Under the pieces are notes generated by a model. The model had not been told where the DNA came from. It saw only the letters and a list, made by a program, of their open reading frames with translations, and ran no database searches. Positions 34,239 to 63,916 of a DNA stretch of 64,000 nucleotides are shown here, piece after piece; the stretch's first letter is position 1; every line of letters begins with the position of its first letter. Location of the stretch: contig JAOACP010000001.1 in the NCBI GenBank assembly GCA_026417795.1, positions 1 through 64,000 on the forward strand. Direction: 5' to 3'. Source of the stretch: Thermanaerothrix sp. GTDB lineage: Bacteria > Synergistota > Synergistia > Synergistales > Synergistaceae. Made by a program: the position numbers and the translations under genes.

Positions 34239-34285
34239 AACAAGAGAGGGAGGGGGTTGCCGCCCCCTCCCTCTCTTGTTGGGTT
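34239..34285 (+). terminator. Terminator between ompH and livF
   Basis: A perfect 18-bp stem (34239-34256 with 34263-34280) with loop TTGCCG is followed by GGGTTTTT. The genes converge here. The reverse direction lacks a T-run, so it mainly serves the plus strand. Confidence 0.85.
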
Positions 34286-37582: not shown

Positions 37583-37931
37583 CTTGAACACCTCTCTCTT
37601 GATGGTATACAAAGACCCCTTAACAAAAAGACCACCTCCCGCCTTTGTGTGGTGCGGATACCGCACATATGAATTGTATCAGAAAATTAGTTCACTTAGC
37701 CCTTGTTGAAAGGGCATGAAGCTGTAGGGGGCGCTAGGCCGCAATGGGCTATTCGCTTTTTATTTATAACTGCTTCGGGTTATTTAGAATAATAAGATAG
37801 GATTATATGAAATATTGCTTTCTGTATTTACGAGGCCCCCCGTCGGGCATCTTTTTTCGCAATTATGTGGATTTTGGCCTCTTCGCCCGGGAAGGGGTGG
37901 GGTGATAATATGCTGTCCAGGGGGTGATGTC
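37583..37931. other. Intergenic region liv operon / adenosine kinase gene
   Basis: About 350 bp with no convincing gene. It is AT-rich between 37740 and 37830. A perfect inverted repeat GTGCGG-ATA-CCGCAC (37652-37666) lies about 70 bp before livH and could be an operator in its leader. A small hairpin (GCCCTT/AAGGGC) lies at 37699-37715. GATAAT at 37904-37909 may be the -10 for the plus-strand gene, without a good -35. No riboswitch was recognised. Confidence 0.5.
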
Positions 37932-53653: not shown

Positions 53654-54472
53654 TTAGCAAACAGCGAGGTCCGAGTTCTTAACATCGCATATGAACATGT
53701 GGCCCGGGGAGTGGGAGATCATAAAGGGTATTCCGCTGGCCATGGCCACCGCTTGGGGCGTTACCCCGCAGGGCCAAAAGACAGGTACCTCGCCGTCCCT
53801 TATGGTAACTGGGTCTCCAAAATCAGGCCTTGCCAGATCCTTTATCCCGATGGCGGAGGGATCCCCTATGTGTATAGGCGCTCCGTGAACCGATGGGAAT
53901 CGCCCTGTGCATAGGACCGCCCTTGGTACCATATGGTGCGGTATTGGTCTCATGCTGACCACCATGGGGCCCTTAAAGGGGCCGGCGGGTTTGCACTGGA
54001 TGTTGGTGATGTACATGCTTACGTTTACACCCTCTTCGATGTGCCTTACTGGTATGCCCTGCTCCATGAGGGCCCATTCGAAGGAGAACGAGCAGCCAAG
54101 GAGAAACGCCGTGAGATCTTCCCTCCAAAAAGGTGATGCGTCGCTTGTCTCCGTGGCCATGCGCCCCTTTTCATACACCCTGTACCGGGGGATGTCGGTG
54201 CTGACGTCTGCCCCGGGCGCTACCATTAAAGGTTCCAGCTTGCCCGGTTCCGTTACGTCTAATACGGGGCATGCCTTGGGATTTCGCTGGCAGAAGATCA
54301 TGAAGTCAAGGGCGTAGTCCCTGGGTAGTGCCACCAGGTTCGCCTGAGCGTAGCCCTCGCACAGCCCCGCGGTGGGACCGTCCCATTTGCCGGTCCGGAT
54401 TATTCCCCTCACCTCTTTGGGGGAGAGCCTTCTTAGCTCCTCAAAGTTTTTGCCTTTCGTCATATCCGTCAT
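53654..54472 (-). CDS. ycsI: YcsI/DUF1445 protein (D-glutamate cyclase-like)
   Basis: This 272-residue protein has DUF1445 features: TAGLCEGYAQANLVALPRDY, AFLLGCSFSFEWALMEQGIP, YITNIQCKPAGPFKGPMVVS, MRPIPHHMVPRAVLCTGRFP and PVFWPCGVTPQAVAMASGIP. The domain is shared with mammalian D-glutamate cyclase, which interconverts D-glutamate and 5-oxo-D-proline. This fits a 5-oxoproline operon. ATG 54472 overlaps the pxpA stop. Confidence 0.87.
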   Translation of the reverse strand: MTDMTKGKNFEELRRLSPKEVRGIIRTGKWDGPTAGLCEGYAQANLVALPRDYALDFMIFCQRNPKACPVLDVTEPGKLEPLMVAPGADVSTDIPRYRVYEKGRMATETSDASPFWREDLTAFLLGCSFSFEWALMEQGIPVRHIEEGVNVSMYITNIQCKPAGPFKGPMVVSMRPIPHHMVPRAVLCTGRFPSVHGAPIHIGDPSAIGIKDLARPDFGDPVTIRDGEVPVFWPCGVTPQAVAMASGIPFMISHSPGHMFICDVKNSDLAVC

Positions 54473-55254
54473 AGTCCAAGCACCTTCCTTATGGGCCTTA
54501 TTTCTACCCCCGCGGCATCAAGGCTTTCCCGGATCTTAATCGCCATCTCCACCGCTCCCTTGGTATCCCCGTGAACGCATATGGATTGGGCCTTTATCGC
54601 CACCGTGGACCCGTCATCTGCGGTGACCCTTCCGTGAAGGACCATTTCAACCGCCCGTTGGGATGCCAAAACCGGATCGTGTATAACCGCCCCTTGCTGA
54701 GAGCGGGGTACCAGGGTTCCATCCGGTTGGTATGCCCGGTCGGCAAAGGCCTCCCCGGCGAAGGGTACCGATAGTTCCTTCGCTGCCTCCTGGAGCTTGG
54801 AATTGGCAAGTCCTAACATTATAAGCTCCCTTTCCCCTTTGCCCGCGTCCTTGATCGCTGCGGCGATGGCCTTTGCCAGGTTGATATCCTTTGCCGCCTG
54901 GTTATAGAGGGCCCCGTGGGGTTTGACATGCTCCAGAGTAGTTCCAGCGGCTTTGCAGAACCCAATTAGGGCCCCAATCTGGTATATGCATATCTCGTAG
55001 ACCTCATCAGGAGTCATGGAGAGGTTTCTACGCCCGAAACCTTGAAGATCCGGGTAGGAAGGATGGGCTCCCAGGGCCACCTTCATGTTGGAACACAGAC
55101 CTACGGTACGCCTCATAACCGATGGATCTCCTCCATGAAACCCACACGCCACGTTGGCGGAGCTTACCACCCTAAGAAGCGCTTCGTCGTCACCCATCTT
55201 GTAAGCCCCGAAGGATTCCCCGAGGTCGCTGTTAAGGTCCATTTGCAAAGTCAA
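54469..55254 (-). CDS. pxpA: 5-oxoprolinase subunit PxpA
   Basis: This ~261-residue LamB/YcsF protein has MDLNSDLGESFGAYKMGDDE, NVACGFHGGDPSVMRRTVGL and ALGAHPSYPDLQGFGRR. PxpA acts with PxpB and PxpC to open 5-oxoproline to glutamate using ATP. TTG 55254 is 9 nt from GGGAGG and preferred to 55263. It follows pxpC in the minus-strand operon. Confidence 0.94.
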   Translation of the reverse strand: MTLQMDLNSDLGESFGAYKMGDDEALLRVVSSANVACGFHGGDPSVMRRTVGLCSNMKVALGAHPSYPDLQGFGRRNLSMTPDEVYEICIYQIGALIGFCKAAGTTLEHVKPHGALYNQAAKDINLAKAIAAAIKDAGKGERELIMLGLANSKLQEAAKELSVPFAGEAFADRAYQPDGTLVPRSQQGAVIHDPVLASQRAVEMVLHGRVTADDGSTVAIKAQSICVHGDTKGAVEMAIKIRESLDAAGVEIRPIRKVLGL

Positions 55255-55294
55255 CGGAACCAACCTCCCTTTTTTTAAATTTAAAATTCCATAA

Positions 55295-56383
55295 CTACAC
55301 TTCTCTTCTGTGGATATCCTCTACACTCACCATAAAAGATCTGCCACCCACCCGGATGTTGAATGAAACAGGTCCTATGGTGTGATGTGAAAACCCGAGG
55401 CAGGCATCTCCAGAGCTGCTGCGATGCCGGGCCCGAAGGTGGTTGGCTTGTTTTAGTGTTTCATTAAATTGAATCAGGCGGTGCAGGGCTTCGTCCACAG
55501 TAACCGGGCGGAAACGGAAAGACTCCCCGGGTACTGCCTGGGATAACCTTGCGCAAGACCAGGCGCTCAGGACGCCTATCTTTGTATAGCCCCCGGTGGT
55601 CTGCCGGTCCGCCATCATTACTATGGGGGTGCCGCTGCCTGGAACTTGAATAGCCCCCAGGGCTATGGGATCTGATATGATGTCCGCCCCGCCTACATGC
55701 TCAATTGCAGGTCCTTCCATCCGATAGCCCATCCGATCCGCTTCGTCTGACACCCTATATTCGGAGGAGTAGAAGGTCTTAATCCCATCGGGGGTGAACA
55801 TGTGTTCTTGAGGGCCTGGGATGACGTCCAAGACCTGTTCGTTTAGCATTTGATCCAAATGGGTGGGCCCATCGAAGGCCAGCCCTTCCCCGGATTTCCA
55901 CAGCGGATCCGCTTCCCCCGATTGGATCATGTCCCCCGCCCTTAGGGGACGGCCGTCCAATCCGCCAAGCTTAGATCTTAGGTGGGTTGAACGGCTGCCC
56001 ATGATGGCAGGGACCTGGATGCCTCCGCTGACGCATATGTACCCCCTGCAGCCTGGACCCACGGGGCCTCTGAAGGAGATCATGTCCCCATTCCTGGGTA
56101 TGATGACCCCCCATGGGGGCACCATTGTGCCGTTTAGCGTCATCCCAAGGTCCGGTCCGGCGAAGAGCATGGCGCCTCCTTCTTCCATGACCTCCAAGGA
56201 GGGCCCTAAGATGGTCACTTCCAATGCCGACGCTTCTTGGGGGTTGCCCAATATTACGTTGCCCAACCTAAGGGAGAAGGGGTCCATGGCCCCCCCTACG
56301 GAGACGCCCTTGTCCTGATGGCCCCATCTTCCAAGATCCTGCACGGTTGTGAGCAGCCCAGGGGTTTTAACCAGCAGCTTCAA
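55295..56383 (-). CDS. pxpC: 5-oxoprolinase subunit PxpC (KipA family)
   Basis: This ~362-residue protein has the PxpC/KipA pattern: TPGLLTTVQDLGRWGHQDKG, VSVGGAMDPFSLRLGN, PGCRGYICVSGGIQVPAIMG, MGYRMEGPAIEHVGGADIIS and MMADRQTTGGYTKIGVLS. TTG 56383 is the likely start after AAGGGAGGTG. It overlaps pxpB by 17 nt, showing coupling of the two subunits. Confidence 0.94.
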   Translation of the reverse strand: MKLLVKTPGLLTTVQDLGRWGHQDKGVSVGGAMDPFSLRLGNVILGNPQEASALEVTILGPSLEVMEEGGAMLFAGPDLGMTLNGTMVPPWGVIIPRNGDMISFRGPVGPGCRGYICVSGGIQVPAIMGSRSTHLRSKLGGLDGRPLRAGDMIQSGEADPLWKSGEGLAFDGPTHLDQMLNEQVLDVIPGPQEHMFTPDGIKTFYSSEYRVSDEADRMGYRMEGPAIEHVGGADIISDPIALGAIQVPGSGTPIVMMADRQTTGGYTKIGVLSAWSCARLSQAVPGESFRFRPVTVDEALHRLIQFNETLKQANHLRARHRSSSGDACLGFSHHTIGPVSFNIRVGGRSFMVSVEDIHRREV

Positions 56384-57119
56384 CCCCGTCACCTCCCTTT
56401 ATCCTAACTGGCCCGTAGGTCCCCTTGCGCCATCGTTCAGCTATGTGCTGGAACTCGTCTTCACCTATGGGCACGAATCGCACCAGATCCCCAGGCTTTA
56501 TTAAGGTCGGCTCTTTCTCGTTGGAGGGGTCGAATAGGGGAAGGGGGGTTCTCCCTATCAGCTGCCAACCTCCAGGGCTTTCTATGGGATATACGCCGGT
56601 CTGGCTTCCCGCTATCCCGACGCTGCCGGCGGGGATTGACTTCCTTGGGGTGGATAGCCTTGGAGTGGCAATCGATTCGTCCATCCCTCCAAGGTAGGGG
56701 AAGCCGGGAGTGAAGCCCAGCATGTAGCAATGATAGTCCCTGGAGGAATGGCGTCTTATGACCTCTTCCTTGGAAATACCCGCGTGGGATGCCACGGTTT
56801 CAAGGTCCGGTCCCATGGAGCCTCCGTATGCCACTGGTATAAGCACCAGGTCCTGTGACTTCCCTTCCTCATCTTGATCGCTTGTCAATAACCCCTCTAG
56901 CTTAAGGATGACCTTCCGATGGCTCACCGCCATGGGGTCGAAGTACACCGCCATGGAGGAATAGGCCACAACGCAGTCTTTAATTCCGGTCATGGCTTCA
57001 AGCAGCAAAGCCTTTCTTAGCCGGTGCAGTCTTAGGTTGACGTTCCGGTCTATTCTATCCGACAGTTCCAGCAGAACCGCCCCTTCCCCGAGAGCGGAGA
57101 TCTTGGGCGTCAAGTCCAA
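56367..57119 (-). CDS. pxpB: 5-oxoprolinase subunit PxpB (KipI family)
   Basis: This ~250-residue protein has the KipI/PxpB signatures: ALGEGAVLLELSDRIDRNVN, YHCYMLGFTPGFPYLGGMDE, PAGSVGIAGSQTGVYPIESP and GGWQLIGRTPLPLFDP. TTG 57119 is 7 nt after AAGGGGGG, so the upstream frame to 57203 is not used. In Bacillus KipI also inhibits the sporulation kinase KinA; that role is not expected here. Confidence 0.94.
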   Translation of the reverse strand: MDLTPKISALGEGAVLLELSDRIDRNVNLRLHRLRKALLLEAMTGIKDCVVAYSSMAVYFDPMAVSHRKVILKLEGLLTSDQDEEGKSQDLVLIPVAYGGSMGPDLETVASHAGISKEEVIRRHSSRDYHCYMLGFTPGFPYLGGMDESIATPRLSTPRKSIPAGSVGIAGSQTGVYPIESPGGWQLIGRTPLPLFDPSNEKEPTLIKPGDLVRFVPIGEDEFQHIAERWRKGTYGPVRIKGGDGVEAAG

Positions 57120-57237
57120 TTCGCGTCCCCCCTTATGTTTCCCTTCATTCCCTTCCAGGATCTTGGAAACTGGAGAAGGGATATCTGGAGGCCCCCATGA
57201 CATGCATGGGGGCGCTTTTAGTTTGCAGTATACCGTA

Positions 57238-58452
57238 TCACCTAAAAAGGTCAGCGATTTTGCTTAGGGAAGTGATCCCCATCCACCCCGTGAAGGCCAC
57301 CATCACGTATCCGGAAAGGGTTAGCAGGGCGGGGTGTCTGTATTCTCCAATAACGTCCTTCCTGTGTGCTGCAAGGAGCATGGAGAGGAGGGATAGCGGC
57401 AGAATAAGGCCGTTCACCGCCCCTGCCAGTATAAGAAGCTTCACCGGTTTTCCTACGGTGGCGAATATCGCCGCCGATGCGGTGATGAAGCCTATTATCC
57501 AGTAGCGCTGGTTGGACTCAACGGACTTGAAAAGGGTCTTAAGGAAAGATATGGACGTGTAGGAGGCCCCCACCACGGATGTAACCGCCGCAGACCATAG
57601 TACCACCCCAAAAAAGCGGTAGCCCAAATTGCCTGCCCCAAGCAGGAATGCGGATGCCGGGGGATTGTTGGGGTCCAACTGTTTGCCCGCAGCCACCACG
57701 CCGAGTATCGCAAGGAATAGGAGGTATCTCATAATGGCGGTTATGCCGATGGCTTTTACCGATCCCACGCTTATCTCTTTTATGTGTTCTTGACCGGTGA
57801 TCCCGGCGTCTATTATCCTATGTGCTCCAGCGAAGGTTATGTATCCTCCCACGGTGCCGCCCACGAGGGTCAGGACGGTCATCCAATCTATGGATGAAGG
57901 GAGGATCGTCTCCTTCAGGGCAAGCCCTACGGGAGGCTGTGTCTTTATTGCCACGAACAGCACCAAGGCGATCATTAGGACGCCCAGGGCCTTTGTGAAG
58001 TTGTCCATAGCTCGGCCCATTTCCTTGCTGAGGAACAGGGCTATGGCTATGGCGGCGGAGATTATGGCTCCCGGTACCATTGGTACTCCGCAGATCACGT
58101 TAAGTCCCATGGCTGCCCCCGCCACATTTCCTATGTTGAAGACAAGCCCCCCCATTGCCACGGCAAAGGCCAGGAAATAGCCTAGCCCGGGGAGCACCCG
58201 GTTTGCCACGTCTTGCCCCCTCAGACCGGATACCCCCAATATCCTCCATATGTTGAGCTGAACCACCACATCGATGAGCACCGATGCCAGGATAGCAAAG
58301 CCAAAGGCCGCCTTAAGCTTGTCGGTGAATACCGCGGTTTGAGTTAAAAAGCCAGGTCCTATGGCGGATGTTGCCATGAGGAACGCGGCCCCCAGCAGCA
58401 CGCTGCCACTCACACCAAGGGATCTTCCGTTGCTGGTCCTATCTTTGTCCAA
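57238..58452 (-). CDS. NRAMP-family transporter (YcsG-like)
   Basis: The 404-residue protein has about eleven membrane helices and NRAMP layout (ATSAIGPGFLTQTAVFTDKL, NIGNVAGAAMGLNVICGVPM). The metal-binding DPGN motif of helix 1 is replaced by IGPGF. Bacillus ycsG occupies the same kind of operon. Import of 5-oxoproline or a related acid is more likely than metal transport. TTG 58452 sits 8 nt after GGGAGG and 30 nt after the predicted -24/-12 start. Confidence 0.87.
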   Translation of the reverse strand: MDKDRTSNGRSLGVSGSVLLGAAFLMATSAIGPGFLTQTAVFTDKLKAAFGFAILASVLIDVVVQLNIWRILGVSGLRGQDVANRVLPGLGYFLAFAVAMGGLVFNIGNVAGAAMGLNVICGVPMVPGAIISAAIAIALFLSKEMGRAMDNFTKALGVLMIALVLFVAIKTQPPVGLALKETILPSSIDWMTVLTLVGGTVGGYITFAGAHRIIDAGITGQEHIKEISVGSVKAIGITAIMRYLLFLAILGVVAAGKQLDPNNPPASAFLLGAGNLGYRFFGVVLWSAAVTSVVGASYTSISFLKTLFKSVESNQRYWIIGFITASAAIFATVGKPVKLLILAGAVNGLILPLSLLSMLLAAHRKDVIGEYRHPALLTLSGYVMVAFTGWMGITSLSKIADLFR

Positions 58453-58490
58453 TTTCCCCACCTCCCACGTGATATCTTCAACACCAATAC

Positions 58491-58509
58491 ATGCAAAAAA
58501 ATTGCCAAA
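58491..58509 (-). promoter_or_regulatory. Sigma-54 (-24/-12) promoter for oxoproline operon
   Basis: On the minus strand TTTGGCAATTTTTTTGCAT has GG (58506-58505) exactly 10 bases from GC (58494-58493), the invariant sigma-54 spacing, and matches the TTGGCA...TTTGCAT consensus. Transcription should start near 58482, 30 nt upstream of the NRAMP TTG. The nearest upstream genes on the same strand encode a sigma-54 and its activator. Confidence 0.87.
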
Positions 58510-58540
58510 GACCCATCCTTCGGAAGCTTTGAAAACATCG

Positions 58541-58616
58541 AAAAATAAAACGCAACCCCCTTTCGGGAGTGTGCGTGGTCCGCACGGCACTGTGCGGACC
58601 ATAGGGTGGTTGCGTT
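58541..58616 (-). terminator. Nested terminator of rpoN operon with palindromic core
   Basis: On the minus strand an outer 9-bp stem (58616-58608 with 58557-58549) is followed by TTATTTTT. Inside lies a perfect 9-bp inverted repeat GGTCCGCAC (58577-58585) and GTGCGGACC (58592-58600). An overlapping GTGCG (58571-58575) pairs with CGCAC (58581-58585). The inner repeat is centred about 105 bp upstream of the sigma-54 start, so it could also be an activator-binding site. Confidence 0.7.
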
Positions 58617-58665
58617 AGCCTTGCTGCCTTAGTAGGCGCAATATCTGGTGTGTTTATGAAGTAAT

Positions 58666-59817
58666 TTATCGGGTAGGGCGGCGGTTCCTGTGATAGGTCA
58701 AGGTTCGTCGGGGTATGCCAAGATTCCTTGATATCTCAAGATCTGATAACCCCATAGACTTTCCCCTTGATATTTCAATGCTTAAGCGATGTATGGACAG
58801 ATTGGGGTTTGCCCTAAGTGGTTTGGAGAGAAGACTGCTTAATCTTACTGTACCGGCTTTGGTTACAGCATAAGTTCCCCTAACGCATCTGGAGATGGTG
58901 GATGGGGATAAGCGGGTTATCTTAGCCAGGTCTGTTTCCGTTAGTGGTTCCAGATGTTGGGACTTGCCGGACAGGAAGTTTCGCTGGGTCATGGTTACAG
59001 CAAGACCGATTGCAGCTAAGGTTCGATACCGTGCCGAGAGCCTGATCAGGATGGAGCGAAGTTTTCCCCTATTGGTTAATGGGCCAGTTAAGGATATGGA
59101 GGGAATGTTTTCCCTTAATAGTTTGAACGAAACCCCTTCTTCACAGGGAGTCATGGATATCTCCGGCCTAACCGGTGTAGAGGCGGTCCCAAGGGGGAAC
59201 GGATCAAGCTTCCGAAGGCTCATCATGGCACTCTTTATCCTATCAAGATCCCACCCGGTGGCTTTGGATATGAGATCCAGCCTTGATGATTCAAGTTCTC
59301 GATGAAAATCCTTGAGCAACCTGGCTCCATCGGAGCCATCCAGAGAAAGACGTCTTAGCTGTATTAAAAGGTAGTCCCTTAGATCCTGTGCAAATATCCC
59401 AGGAGGGTCTAGTTGATCCTGGATCTCCTTGAGGGCTTCTAAGAAACGGTCCAGAGGGATGCCGAGGCTGGAAGCGCATTCCAGGGGGGAACCGTTCAAG
59501 TACCCCTTGGGGCCCAGCAGGCATACCCAGTCCAAAGGGGTTGTGCCCTTCGGGAGGTCCTTTATGAGGCTCAGCTGGAACTCTATCTCTCTTATCTCAT
59601 CCAACGGTTCTTCCCAGATGTTTTCCTCCATCGGCAGCTCCAACCGCCCATGGGGACGCTTAACTATTACCGATGGAAGATCCTCACAAGCTTTATGCAG
59701 CTCTTCCACCAGCTCGTCAGGGGAGAGGAAAAGCCAGTTCCCGCCTCTTAGCAGATATGGTTTAGCTCCTATCCCCACGTTGGGGTTGTTGGAGAGCCTT
59801 ATCTCAAGAAAGGCCAT
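58666..59817 (-). CDS. rpoN: Sigma-54 factor RpoN, short and divergent
   Basis: This 383-residue protein keeps the sigma-54 order: an N-terminal region with LSPDELVEELHKACEDLP, a core-binding domain (DPPGIFAQDLRDYLLIQLRR), an HTH domain (LTETDLAKITRLSPSTISRC, VRGTY) and a C-terminal RpoN box variant PRRTLTYHRN (usual ARRTVAKYRE). It is shorter than the usual ~430-490, and the Gln-rich region I is reduced. Sigma-54 directs polymerase to -24/-12 promoters and needs an ATPase activator, encoded just upstream (14-nt overlap). Confidence 0.88.
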   Translation of the reverse strand: MAFLEIRLSNNPNVGIGAKPYLLRGGNWLFLSPDELVEELHKACEDLPSVIVKRPHGRLELPMEENIWEEPLDEIREIEFQLSLIKDLPKGTTPLDWVCLLGPKGYLNGSPLECASSLGIPLDRFLEALKEIQDQLDPPGIFAQDLRDYLLIQLRRLSLDGSDGARLLKDFHRELESSRLDLISKATGWDLDRIKSAMMSLRKLDPFPLGTASTPVRPEISMTPCEEGVSFKLLRENIPSISLTGPLTNRGKLRSILIRLSARYRTLAAIGLAVTMTQRNFLSGKSQHLEPLTETDLAKITRLSPSTISRCVRGTYAVTKAGTVRLSSLLSKPLRANPNLSIHRLSIEISRGKSMGLSDLEISRNLGIPRRTLTYHRNRRPTR

Positions 59818-61147
59818 GGCGCTGAAGCCGCCTTAATAAGGAGAACCTTGATATGCCTAGCTCTTTTGCCGCTTGGGTCTTGTTGTTTCCACATCTTTCC
59901 AGGGCCTCAATGATCAATTCAAGTTCCCTGTTGGCCAGCTTTGCGTCCAGGGAGTTGGTAACGGACACTTCTTCCTCCTGGGGGAGGGTTAACATTTCCT
60001 CCGGCAAGTCCTTCAATGATATTACGTGGGATTCTGGGTCAGAGAGTATGACCAACCTCTCGATCAAGTTCTTAAGTTCCCTTACGTTGCCGGGCCAAGG
60101 GTAGTTTAGGAAGAGATCCTCCACCTCAGGGGAAAGGTCCTTAGGCGGCCGTCCTCTCTTTATGGAGAAGGTCCTTAGGAAGAACTCTGCCAGTTCTATC
60201 ACATCGGATCCCCGCTCCCTTAATGGCGGGATCTTGATTGGTATCGTGGATATCCTGTACAAGAGGTCTTTCCTGAAGAGACCCTGGGTGGACATTCCCT
60301 TAAGGTCCTTGTGGGTGGCGCATACCAAGTTCAGGGATACTTCCCTTTCCACTGTATCACCGAGCCGCCTAAAACGCCTGCTGTCAAGAAAGCGGAGCAG
60401 TTTAGACTGAAGGGGCAGAGGAAGATCTCCTATCTCATCCAGCATGACGGTACCGCCATGGCCTATCTCCAGCAGTCCATTTTTGTCATCCGTAGCGCCA
60501 GTGTAAGCTCCTCTTTTATAGCCGAATAGTTCCGCCTCAAGCAGGCTTTCGGGTATGGCTCCACAGTTTATCGCCACGAAGCTGCCTCCGGGCGAGGTTG
60601 CCTCGTGAATCATCCTGGCGATGACCTCCTTGCCGGTGCCGCTCTCACCGGTAAGCAGTATGTTGATATCCCTTTGTCCCTTAAGCCGGTTTACAGTGTC
60701 TCTAAGCCTCGCCATGGGGACAGAAGAGCCTATAAGCTGGGTGCTTCCCATGGCGGCACCGCGGGCGGCCATATCTACGGAGTAACGGCGTATGGCTCGT
60801 TGGACCATTTTTCTTAATATCTCCAGGGAGAATGGTTTGTCGATGTAGTCAAAAGCCCCGTTCCTTATGGCCTTGACTATAAGGGGGCTTTCCCCGTACG
60901 CAGTCATGAGTATTATCCTCACGTGGGGCAGGGCGGATGATATGTTGGGTATTGCGTCTGCTCCAAGGCCATCCGGAAGCTTGTGGTCAAGGATTATGAG
61001 CTGCGGAGGTTGATGCGGTGACCTCGCGGATTGCAGGAGGGATTTCAACGTGCCGAAGGTGAGGACCCGATGACCGTCCTTCTCAAAAGCCCTTCTGAGC
61101 CCCTCCGCAAGGGCCCTCTCATCCTCCGCTATCCATATGTCCGCCAT
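59804..61147 (-). CDS. NtrC-type sigma-54 response regulator
   Basis: This 447-residue protein has a receiver (about 1-120; LIILDHKLPDG with the phospho-Asp) and an AAA+ domain (about 140-370) with Walker A GESGTGKE, sigma-54 loop GAYTGA, Walker B GTVMLDEIGD and the WPGNVREL motif. A Fis-type HTH (NNKTQAAKELGISRFSLLRR) closes it. It should activate the -24/-12 promoter at 58491-58509. It overlaps the kinase gene by 19 nt. Confidence 0.95.
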   Translation of the reverse strand: MADIWIAEDERALAEGLRRAFEKDGHRVLTFGTLKSLLQSARSPHQPPQLIILDHKLPDGLGADAIPNISSALPHVRIILMTAYGESPLIVKAIRNGAFDYIDKPFSLEILRKMVQRAIRRYSVDMAARGAAMGSTQLIGSSVPMARLRDTVNRLKGQRDINILLTGESGTGKEVIARMIHEATSPGGSFVAINCGAIPESLLEAELFGYKRGAYTGATDDKNGLLEIGHGGTVMLDEIGDLPLPLQSKLLRFLDSRRFRRLGDTVEREVSLNLVCATHKDLKGMSTQGLFRKDLLYRISTIPIKIPPLRERGSDVIELAEFFLRTFSIKRGRPPKDLSPEVEDLFLNYPWPGNVRELKNLIERLVILSDPESHVISLKDLPEEMLTLPQEEEVSVTNSLDAKLANRELELIIEALERCGNNKTQAAKELGISRFSLLRRLQRHGLS

Positions 61148-62424
61148 GATAACTGGGCCTCCTCTTGGTTTGAAGATGTTCCTTGGTTTGGTGTGTTTAG
61201 TGATATTTTAAAGCTGGTAACCCCATTACATACTGAAAATGATATATGTCCTCCCATTTCTTCCACCAGCTTTTTTGCTATGGCCAGCCCTAATCCGGTG
61301 CCGTTGGGTTTTGTGGTTACGAAGGGTTCGAATATACGGTCTGCCATGTGGCATGGTATCGGCTCTCCCGTGTCATCCACGCCTATTATCAGTCTCTCCC
61401 CTTCCATTTGAGTCCAGATTACCAGCCTGCCTCCGTCAGGCATGGCCTCAACCCCGTTTGAGATGAGGTTTAAAAGCACCTGCCGCAGTTTGCCCGGATC
61501 TGCCTCCACCAACTGGTTTGGGTTTTCAATCCGAGTTTCAAGATGAATTGTCCCAGAAGTGGCTATGGACCTCATCATGTGAGTGGCCCAGGATATCACT
61601 TGACCGATAGGAAGGTGCTCCATCTTACCCCTGTGGGTTCTTGCGAAAATCAGGAATCGCTCCACAGTGTCAGAAATCCTGTTAAGTTCCCCTGCTAAGA
61701 ATTCGAGGTTTTCCACGGCCTCCTTCGGCAAGCGATCCTGCATCTCCATGAGCAGCTCCACGTGTATTTTCATTGCGGCCAAGGGATTTCGCACCTCATG
61801 GGCTACTCCTGATACCATCTCTCCCATCGATACCAGTCTATCCATGCGGCTTATTTGGGATTGAAGCCTTTGCCACTCTTGCAACTGAAGGGCCATCCTG
61901 TTGAATGACCTTATAAGGGTTTCCAGCTCGTATATGAAAGTCCCTTTTATCGGGGCTTCGGTCTGGTGGTCTCCTCGGGCGATGGCCTCCATAGCCCAGG
62001 AGAGTCGCCTTATGGGGTATGTAATCATGTAAGCTAAGACTATTGCCAGCTCCAGGGAAACTAACAGGGCTATTATGCCCCAAACCAAGATGATCCTGTT
62101 TTCTTCCACCACCTTGCCCATTATTTCAGATCGGTTCAGGCGGAGCCTTATCGCTCCACCATCCCTGGACCTTAGCACGATATCCCCTTGGGAGGATGGG
62201 ATTAAAGTTGGGGCAAGTCGCTGAATCACCCTTTCAGTTTCGTTAAAATATAGGTTCCGGGTTATTTCGCCGGCGAGGCGAGCGTCGTCAAGGGCTCTTT
62301 TTATCTCCATCTCCAGGCTGGTTTTAATTTGCAGGGCAAGCAAGGTTCCTGCTACGCCCACCACTGCTATGGTAACGATGGCCTTTAAGACGGTCTCCAG
62401 GGAGGGTTTGTTGGCTGTTTTCAT
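61129..62424 (-). CDS. Membrane sensor histidine kinase
   Basis: The 431-residue kinase has TM1 (about 12-32), a small extracytoplasmic part (about 33-112) and TM2 (about 113-138). A HAMP-like segment, the H box SGVAHEVRNPLAAMKIHVEL, N box LRQVLLNLISNGVEAM and G boxes DDTGEPIP and NGTGLGLAIAKKL follow. ATG 62424 overlaps the symporter stop (ATGA). It is probably the partner of the NtrC-like regulator. Confidence 0.93.
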   Translation of the reverse strand: MKTANKPSLETVLKAIVTIAVVGVAGTLLALQIKTSLEMEIKRALDDARLAGEITRNLYFNETERVIQRLAPTLIPSSQGDIVLRSRDGGAIRLRLNRSEIMGKVVEENRIILVWGIIALLVSLELAIVLAYMITYPIRRLSWAMEAIARGDHQTEAPIKGTFIYELETLIRSFNRMALQLQEWQRLQSQISRMDRLVSMGEMVSGVAHEVRNPLAAMKIHVELLMEMQDRLPKEAVENLEFLAGELNRISDTVERFLIFARTHRGKMEHLPIGQVISWATHMMRSIATSGTIHLETRIENPNQLVEADPGKLRQVLLNLISNGVEAMPDGGRLVIWTQMEGERLIIGVDDTGEPIPCHMADRIFEPFVTTKPNGTGLGLAIAKKLVEEMGGHISFSVCNGVTSFKISLNTPNQGTSSNQEEAQLSWRTYG

Positions 62425-63827
62425 CTTATCCGCATCTCTTTCCATGGAATTATTGCGATTCCTTGGAATCCCAGGGTCAGGAGCATGCTTACTTCCGGCG
62501 GTATCCTTAACCCGCAAAGGGCTGTGTGAATGAGCAAAGACCAGCCAAGGATGGCGAAGGACATCCTATGCCGTAGCCTCCTTGGAAGGTATATGGGGGT
62601 TAGGAAGAAAACAGCCACGAAGGTCCAGCTTAGGCGGCCCACGAACATTATGTCGTAGTTAGGGATATGGCTTATAAGAAGCGCCACTGTGGCGATGAGA
62701 AGTATAGCCCCGCGATTTAATAGCATCCAGTGGTCGTGTCGGGTTTCTTTGGTGTGGGTTAAGCGTACGTTGTCTTTCCCAAGCCCTCCAATGTCGTAAC
62801 ATACGGCGGATGCCGCGAGCAGTAGCTGAGAGTTGGCGGTGCTGACCGCTGCCGCCATCACCGATACGAAGAAAAGGCCTGCAGCCCAGCTGGGACATTG
62901 GGAACTCAACAGCCGAAGTAGCCCCTCTGGATGGGCGCCATGAAATACGTTGGAAGGAATTGATGAAAAGATGAGGGCCATGGAGGACAACAGCAGGTAT
63001 ACCAAGCCTATCAGCACAGGGGATATGGAAAGCATTGCGAACGCATCCCTCTCTTTCCTGCAAGCCATGATCCTTATCCCGTATTGGGGGTTTGCTGCGA
63101 CCCCAAGACCCCAGGCTAGTGCGGAGCTGATTACCTGAAGGGATTCAGTGGGAGATTCCCATACGTTGAGTTTGCTCGGTGAGGAAGCAGAGATTTCCCT
63201 TATGGCATGCCAAAACGGTTTTAGGTTTACGTTTAACTCAATTGCAGCCACCAAAACTCCCACGATGATTACCAGCAGGTTCAATGCGTCACTCTTGACA
63301 ACCGATTGGTATCCTCCGAAGGTGGTGTAAAGTACGAATAGGTACACCAGGGCGGTGGAGCTGAACCCGTATGGTATCCCCAGCATGTGGGAGGCCACCA
63401 GCCCAAATGCCTTGAACTGTATTGCTATGTATGGCACGTATGATGCGAGCAACACCGCGCCGCCAAGCTTTACTAGCCTGTTGTCTTCGTAAAACTTGCC
63501 CACGAATTCCGGCACGCTTACGCTTCTTGACGCCCTTAGCCTTAGGACCGCAAAGGGCATTGGTATTAACCCCAACAGCCAGCCGTTTACGGATCCTGCG
63601 AAAGCCACCATCCCGTCGTGTATCATCCAGGTGGTGAAGCCAATGATGGATGCGGCGCTTAGCCAGGTGGCGCAAAAGGTCATGGTGCTGAATAGGACAC
63701 CCGTGTCCCTCCCGCCAAGGTAGAACCTTCTAATGCTGTCCCGCCATGGGAAGGTTTGTCCTGTTAGGAGTATTATGGCCAGGGTGTACCCGCTGAAGGC
63801 AATTAGGTTTACGGCTAACGATGGCAT
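62421..63827 (-). CDS. SLC5/SSS-family sodium symporter (PutP-like)
   Basis: The 468-residue protein has about 13 membrane helices and SSS features: RRFYLGGRDTGVLFSTMTFC, ATWLSAASIIGFTTWM, YTTFGGYQSVVKSDALNLLV and AAVSTANSQLLLAAS with sodium-site-like residues. It overlaps the kinase start by ATGA. In CbrA-type kinases an SLC5 domain is fused to the kinase; here the two parts are separate but translationally coupled. The substrate may be 5-oxoproline or glutamate (inference). Confidence 0.9.
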   Translation of the reverse strand: MPSLAVNLIAFSGYTLAIILLTGQTFPWRDSIRRFYLGGRDTGVLFSTMTFCATWLSAASIIGFTTWMIHDGMVAFAGSVNGWLLGLIPMPFAVLRLRASRSVSVPEFVGKFYEDNRLVKLGGAVLLASYVPYIAIQFKAFGLVASHMLGIPYGFSSTALVYLFVLYTTFGGYQSVVKSDALNLLVIIVGVLVAAIELNVNLKPFWHAIREISASSPSKLNVWESPTESLQVISSALAWGLGVAANPQYGIRIMACRKERDAFAMLSISPVLIGLVYLLLSSMALIFSSIPSNVFHGAHPEGLLRLLSSQCPSWAAGLFFVSVMAAAVSTANSQLLLAASAVCYDIGGLGKDNVRLTHTKETRHDHWMLLNRGAILLIATVALLISHIPNYDIMFVGRLSWTFVAVFFLTPIYLPRRLRHRMSFAILGWSLLIHTALCGLRIPPEVSMLLTLGFQGIAIIPWKEMRIR

Positions 63828-63916
63828 CTTGTCTTTTGCCTGTACCTTATTAGAATGGCGCTCAAACTGAACGGGAGCACCAGAAGGATGGAGAACACTA
63901 AAAGGTTTGCCCGCAT
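63815..63916 (-). CDS. 33-residue membrane peptide coupled to symporter
   Basis: A 33-codon frame (ATG 63916, TAG 63815-63817) encodes MRANLLVFSILLVLPFSLSA then a basic tail. This is a single membrane helix followed by RYRQKTRCHR. It has an SD GGAAGGGGG, and its end overlaps the symporter start by 13 nt. Small one-helix accessory subunits are known beside some sodium symporters. Recognised by hand only. Confidence 0.55.
   Translation of the reverse strand: MRANLLVFSILLVLPFSLSAILIRYRQKTRCHR

Follow-up and report, generated by a model that had tools for sequence, protein, structure and literature searches.

A candidate self-contained sigma-54 cassette next to the 5-oxoprolinase operon of Thermanaerothrix and other Synergistota

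Gene content of the locus

The window analyzed here, a 64,000-nucleotide stretch of Thermanaerothrix sp. contig JAOACP010000001.1, contains two adjoining groups of genes on the minus strand, namely a predicted operon for the use of 5-oxoproline (pyroglutamate) and, upstream of it, a set of regulatory genes. The operon begins with a gene for an NRAMP-family transporter (YcsG/PxpT-like; 57238-58452; Pfam PF01566) that has a TTG start; a longer frame of 454 aa, with its start at 58602, was discarded for this 404-aa frame because the relatives align from the latter's start only. It continues with the genes for the 5-oxoprolinase subunits, pxpB (56367-57203; TIGR00370 above cut-off), pxpC (55295-56392; PF02626 and TIGR00724 above cut-off), and pxpA (54469-55263; PF03746 and NF003814 above cut-off), and closes with a gene of the DUF1445/D-glutamate cyclase family (53654-54472; PF07286), which conserved gene order marks as the last conserved gene of the operon. 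PxpC exceeds the domain-level cut-off only and scores below the PxpC equivalog cut-off; the joint presence of pxpA, pxpB, and pxpC identifies a PxpABC 5-oxoprolinase operon.

With respect to the transporter, 5-oxoproline uptake is the probable function by analogy with PxpT of Corynebacterium glutamicum, an NRAMP-family relative whose function is in line with such uptake (PMC13274462). This substrate assignment stays tentative because YcsG of Bacillus subtilis has been described instead as a manganese importer (PMC10448178). In two genomes from our comparison, G072 and G185, the operator and promoter described below are followed by a TRAP transporter rather than by NRAMP (L168, 9326-12346; L172, 8915-11942). 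The best solved relatives of the TRAP binding protein are 2pfy and 2pfz, which we take to be pyroglutamate-binding DctP proteins of Bordetella, and this replacement therefore supports 5-oxoproline uptake as the regulated function.

The regulatory genes comprise, in the direction of transcription, a sodium:solute symporter family gene (62421-63827; PF00474), a gene for a membrane histidine kinase with matches to the HAMP, HisKA, and HATPase domains (61129-62517; true start probably near 62421), a gene for an NtrC-type activator (59804-61147), and a divergent rpoN (58666-59817). The symporter is a possible transporter-sensor partner of the kinase. The start of the symporter gene is overlapped by a frame for a 33-aa one-helix miniprotein (63815-63916, minus strand). 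Most of the 28 loci examined have a similar short hydrophobic frame with basic C-terminal residues in this place, and the product may be a small symporter subunit. The activator consists of a receiver, an AAA+ domain with a GAYTGA loop, and a Fis-type HTH, and its retention of the receiver Asp, Walker A, Walker B, and the GAYTGA loop places it among the Group I enhancer-binding proteins.

The sigma factor itself (sigma-54, 383 aa) matches PF04963 (79 bits, cut-off 22.9) and PF04552 (46 bits, cut-off 22.8), and its predicted fold matches sigma-54 structures only, at E<=0.001, in a model of moderate confidence whose residues 1-25 have pLDDT below 50. Its score against the NCBIfam TIGR02395 equivalog is 111 bits, below the 277-bit cut-off, and we therefore class it as a diverged homologue of sigma-54, not as a standard RpoN. 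The RpoN box reads RRTLTYHR as compared with ARRTVAKYR, with RT invariant and KY replaced. Moreover, the activator-interacting domain (region I, PF00309) was undetectable in all six divergent RpoN proteins tested and present in both canonical ones in the same alignment; visual alignment does show a diverged, poorly modelled remnant of this region. The genome encodes this one RpoN and a single activator with a score over 40 bits; all further PF00158 matches are weak, near E 1e-7.

Promoter and operator upstream of NRAMP

The 213-nt gap between rpoN and NRAMP contains the element TTGGCAATTTTTTTGCATGTAT (58487-58508, minus strand), which combines TGGCA and TTGC elements in the arrangement of a sigma-54 promoter, with the GG of the -24 region at 58506-58505 and the GC of the -12 region at 58494-58493. 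The exact GG-N10-GC spacing had been noticed in a first-pass annotation made from the letters of the window, and it is confirmed here; the distance of 30 nt to NRAMP given there is roughly right, the predicted start near 58481 lying about 29 nt from the TTG start at 58452 and the end of the element about 38 nt before it. The probability of encountering TTGGCA-N6-TTGCA by chance within the gap is about 1e-4. Furthermore, the same element, [AG]GCAACTTTTTTGC[AT]T, is near-identical in 31 loci from six families, with the N10 spacing kept throughout and with the second G, the C, the A, the TT before -12, and the -12 GC invariant. The first G is replaced by A in 6 of these loci (it is G in the Thermanaerothrix window), and the -24 region deviates from the textbook form in having CAAC (CAAT in the window) instead of CACG. 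As a sequence element, the predicted -24/-12 promoter of the NRAMP-pxp operon is real.

No other match to the promoter 22-mer with up to three mismatches exists in the whole 1.92-Mb genome, and a relaxed TTGGCA-N4-TTTTGCA pattern retrieves the NRAMP promoter along with two one-mismatch matches. Sites of the classic form TGGCACG-N5-TGCA show no genome-wide excess over a reversed-pattern control (22 vs 37). These scans are pattern searches in a 97% complete draft, in which a second target promoter could be missed. A weak terminator-like hairpin, CCGAAGG...TCTTTGG, at 58505-58523 (minus strand), the T run of which is the promoter spacer, is probably a chance occurrence.

Farther upstream, the 9-bp inverted repeat of the first-pass annotation turns out to be slightly larger, with perfect 10-bp arms, TGGTCCGCAC-N6-GTGCGGACCA (58576-58601; chance probability in the gap about 7e-4), and its center lies about 107 bp upstream of the predicted start, close to the 105 bp originally estimated. 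The proposal that this palindrome is the activator site did not survive comparison with relatives: the conserved unit is an offset candidate operator, GTGCG-N5-CGCAC, represented here by GTGCGGACCACGCAC (58571-58585, minus strand), which overlaps one arm of the palindrome. A second, distal operator, CCCTATGGTCCGCAC (58592-58606, minus strand), is degenerate, with the CGCAC half-site alone surviving in a 21-bp register to the proximal copy. The palindrome is, by this alignment, a composite of two inner half-sites, the surviving half of the distal operator and the first half of the proximal one, because the distal copy has lost one half and the copy aligned with it in the same-genus genome G051, GAGCGGATATCGCAC, still has 9 of the 10 fixed bases. 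The nearest module-bearing relative (G052) retains CGCAC-N6-GTGCG alone, and the extra arm bases are not conserved.

The exact GTGCG-N5-CGCAC sequence is present in 14 of the 15 module-bearing loci tested; 2000 shuffles gave 0.0045 on average and never more than 1. The single exception (G004) has the same half-sites with an N4 spacer. Intact tandem operators 20-21 bp apart occur in G160, G161, and G163. In families f2 and f5 and parts of f4 and f10, the promoter and the activator are kept and the exact operator is absent, so that operator specificity has drifted there or the operator goes unrecognized. The half-sites are those of the published DctD site of Rhizobium meliloti, TGTGCGgaaatCCGCACA, which is likewise tandem, with TGTGCG...CGCACA half-sites (PMC11077940); the tandem register agrees as well in several loci, but the spacer is N5 here and N6 in DctD, and one of the two sites is degenerate in the window.

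Given that the families lacking the exact operator keep the activator, the promoter might be used by sigma-54 and the operator serve another regulator, either a repressor or a global nitrogen or carbon factor. We regard this as very unlikely: sigma-54 promoters require an activator of the NtrC type, of which the genome encodes one clear member only; the position, the 20-21 bp tandem register, and the DctD-like half-sites are typical of activator sites; and in G051 the site has decayed where the activator, too, was lost.

The genome scan for the repeat near other GG-N10-GC sites, suggested in the first-pass annotation, returned no second such site, and the palindrome itself has nothing beyond one 3-mismatch match elsewhere in the genome. 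One other exact GTGCG-N5-CGCAC site lies inside dnaJ and was rejected as an operator, as were the exact sites read in other genomes, which appear to fall in coding sequence. A further exact site, GTGCGGTATCCGCAC (37652-37666), lies immediately after an extended -10 promoter ahead of livH and is conserved in G052; because G051 has a different inverted repeat, TCGCGCCTGGGGCGCGA, there, a 5'-leader hairpin is a likelier identity for it than an activator site. The longest perfect inverted repeat in the window is found at 34239-34280, with 18-bp arms and a 6-nt loop. Auto-regulation of the activator was also rejected, since neither the operator nor a -24/-12 element was detected upstream of the symporter gene in the 15 loci compared. 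A distinct palindromic motif, TTGAC...TGACATCGTCAATT, lies upstream of the symporter gene, beyond 63916, and is conserved in G000, G052, G051, and G001; it is perhaps the operator of a neighboring gene.

The inverted repeat had also been placed within the rpoN terminator, as one element serving both purposes. We find no support for this dual role: the T tract belongs to a separate terminator-like hairpin, ACTCCCGAAAGGGGGT before TGCGTTTTATTTTT (58555-58570, minus strand), a possible rpoN terminator, and no T run longer than two lies within 20 nt of the operator in the window, so that the palindrome does not have the form of an intrinsic terminator. The stronger version, in which the repeat mainly ends transcription of rpoN, or of any other gene situated just before NRAMP, with the activator-like half-sites being incidental, could draw on the location of the repeat about 64 nt after the rpoN stop, on the strong folding of the region (z-score -4.0), and on the terminator-like hairpin with its T tract that follows the repeat. 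In G071, moreover, the operator is followed directly by TTTTTT, and in G160 it begins 28 nt after the stop of an inserted gene, a position that, taken alone, may be compatible with a terminator role for that preceding gene. We nonetheless consider this version very unlikely. No T tract directly follows the repeat itself; among 22 loci, a T run directly follows the operator in G071 only (in G013 one lies within 20 nt); the GTGCG-N5-CGCAC core is conserved and the hairpin and T tract are not; and in G051 the proximal copy decayed along with the activator. Furthermore, in loci with 3-5 kb of intervening genes between rpoN and NRAMP, the operators and the promoter remain beside NRAMP rather than rpoN, which disfavors a shared role in rpoN termination. 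An Rfam search of 58200-59000 gave no RNA element match even at E 5. The genes that intervene in G160 (family f7; L173, 9096-14074) include a large hybrid sensor kinase and an HD-GYP-like-looking response regulator, and similar gaps are seen in G164, G166, and G163.

Linkage and loss across Synergistota

Across Synergistota, the same gene order recurs: SSS symporter, histidine kinase, NtrC-type activator, and divergent RpoN, followed by NRAMP (or TRAP), pxpBCA, and DUF1445. It was found in 15 module-bearing genomes of the same family (G013 being partial, on a short contig) and in 19 loci of other families, some with insertions, among which G165 is cut by the contig end and G076 is incomplete. 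Of the divergent-RpoN loci read, all have the module ahead of NRAMP/TRAP-pxp apart from G013 and G165, both cut by contig ends, and G076, which has neither NRAMP nor a recognizable promoter. Promoter and operator are both present in all 15 same-family module loci, counting the N4-spaced operator of G004, and in G071. Conversely, an intact copy of either is lacking in seven NRAMP-pxp loci (G051, G023, G020, G044, MS502, AS24, and DJKA70), and in all seven the module is broken, absent, or not visible. No RpoN was found anywhere in the genomes of G023, G020, and G044; the contigs of AS24 and DJKA70 are too short for certainty on module absence. The loci share ancestry, and these counts of conservation and co-loss are accordingly not phylogenetically independent.

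The clearest separate loss event is that of G051, a complete genome of the same genus. Here only the last ~67 residues of the activator remain, the kinase is absent, just part of the symporter is left, rpoN carries a frameshift and internal stops, and the proximal operator has decayed. At the site of the -24/-12 element, G051 has TTGACCGCTACGGCATTTCTGCATATAGT, which contains TTGACC-N17-TATAGT, a sigma-70 type promoter matching at 10 of 12 positions with 17-nt spacing. G051, which lost the cassette, offers a worked case of the replacement of a sigma-54 promoter by a sigma-70 one, and this co-loss lends indirect support to RpoN-dependent transcription from the promoter in the window.

The divergence of RpoN, with its undetectable activator-interacting domain and its 111 bits against the 277-bit NCBI cut-off, could be taken to mean that the protein no longer works and that the promoter is a relic, pxp being expressed by read-through or from an unrecognized sigma-70 promoter; in line with this, no strong terminator is conserved between rpoN and NRAMP, and three RpoN matches in family f10 each contain one in-frame stop. 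We hold this reading to be very improbable. The matched RpoN frame is open in 31 genomes from five families, Walker A, Walker B, and a GAFTGA-type loop are all retained in the activator, the promoter bases are near-invariant across families, unlike those expected of a relic, and G051, in which the genes were indeed lost, provides an example of such a relic. Conservation, linkage, and co-loss lend strong support to the central claim of the first-pass annotation, namely a sigma-54 promoter with an upstream activator site for the pxp operon.

Proposed mechanism and comparison with known systems

We propose that the locus is, very probably, a private, single-target sigma-54 cassette that controls the NRAMP-pxp operon for the use of 5-oxoproline. 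Under this proposal, the partner kinase, perhaps informed by the sodium:solute symporter, would phosphorylate the NtrC-type activator (59804-61147), which would then bind the GTGCG-N5-CGCAC operators centered near -97, the distal copy being degenerate in the window. The bound activator would contact RNA polymerase equipped with the cluster's own divergent RpoN and open the promoter at 58487-58508 by ATP hydrolysis, leading to transcription of NRAMP-pxpBCA-DUF1445. Sensor, activator, and sigma factor would in this manner serve one target, the uptake of 5-oxoproline and its hydrolysis to glutamate. The promoter, the operator, the phylum-wide linkage, and the co-loss with the regulators are read directly from the sequences; which protein binds which site we infer from them, and the signal is presumably 5-oxoproline or a related amino acid. 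Neither a second recognizable promoter of the NRAMP type nor a second clear activator was found in the genome, and use of the cassette for a single target in the cell appears probable. What counts against the proposal is an RpoN lacking a detectable form of the domain needed for activator-dependent opening, the inexact operator in f2, f5, and parts of f4 and f10, and the absence of NRAMP and of a recognizable promoter from G076.

A broader hypothesis, whose chances we consider evenly balanced, is that this Synergistota sigma-54 subfamily forms a self-contained single-target cassette in which the factor, the activator, the operator, the variant promoter [AG]GCAACTTTTTTGC, and the strongly altered activator-contact region co-evolved and became insulated from canonical sigma-54, with cassette loss leading to replacement by a sigma-70 type promoter. 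Typically, sigma-54 is portrayed as a factor common to many activators and targets. With one sigma-54 of diverged activator-contact region seemingly dedicated to one operon, nature provides a test of the minimum of region I that is required and of the co-evolution of sigma factor and promoter.

Several known systems resemble parts of this arrangement. In CbrA-CbrB of Pseudomonas, a sodium:solute symporter module is joined to the kinase that acts on an NtrC-type activator. The same combination of symporter module, kinase, and activator is seen here, but with the symporter and kinase encoded by separate overlapping genes, a dedicated RpoN, and a different target. Similarly, DctB-DctD/dctA of Rhizobium, which governs dicarboxylate uptake, couples a two-component NtrC-type activator to a transporter gene; in contrast to that system, the sigma factor here is divergent and encoded in the cluster, the sensor is linked to a symporter, and the target is 5-oxoproline uptake and hydrolysis.

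A single RpoN with very few activators or one is known from the mannose-PTS system of Lactobacillus plantarum, from Borrelia, and from Chlamydia (PMC3162934), with few targets in L. plantarum. The present system differs from these in that sigma factor, activator, sensor, and target belong to one conserved cluster; the PTS systems, moreover, use LevR/CelR-like activators and an unrelated pathway.

As for the pathway, PxpABC together with an NRAMP-family transporter is also found in C. glutamicum and B. subtilis, whereas the control described there, by the GntR-family regulator PxpR in C. glutamicum and by TnrA, KipR, AhrC, MntR, and CcpA in B. subtilis, does not involve sigma-54 (PMC13274462; PMC10448178). 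No report of sigma-54 control of pxp or 5-oxoproline was found in the literature searched, an absence that is not proof, and searches combining Synergistetes with RpoN or Thermanaerovibrio with sigma-54 gave few matches, by their titles apparently on other topics. A 2026 paper states that, to its authors' knowledge, the regulation of bacterial pyroglutamate use had not been studied before (PMC13274462); the cassette described here provides a candidate regulator for it.

Finally, RpoN paralogues with small differences in their promoters are known from Rhodobacter sphaeroides and Bradyrhizobium (PMC3162934). Two of the Synergistota genomes, G005 and G014, likewise encode two RpoN proteins, a canonical and a divergent one; compared with those paralogues, the second RpoN here is far more diverged and is tied to one operon.
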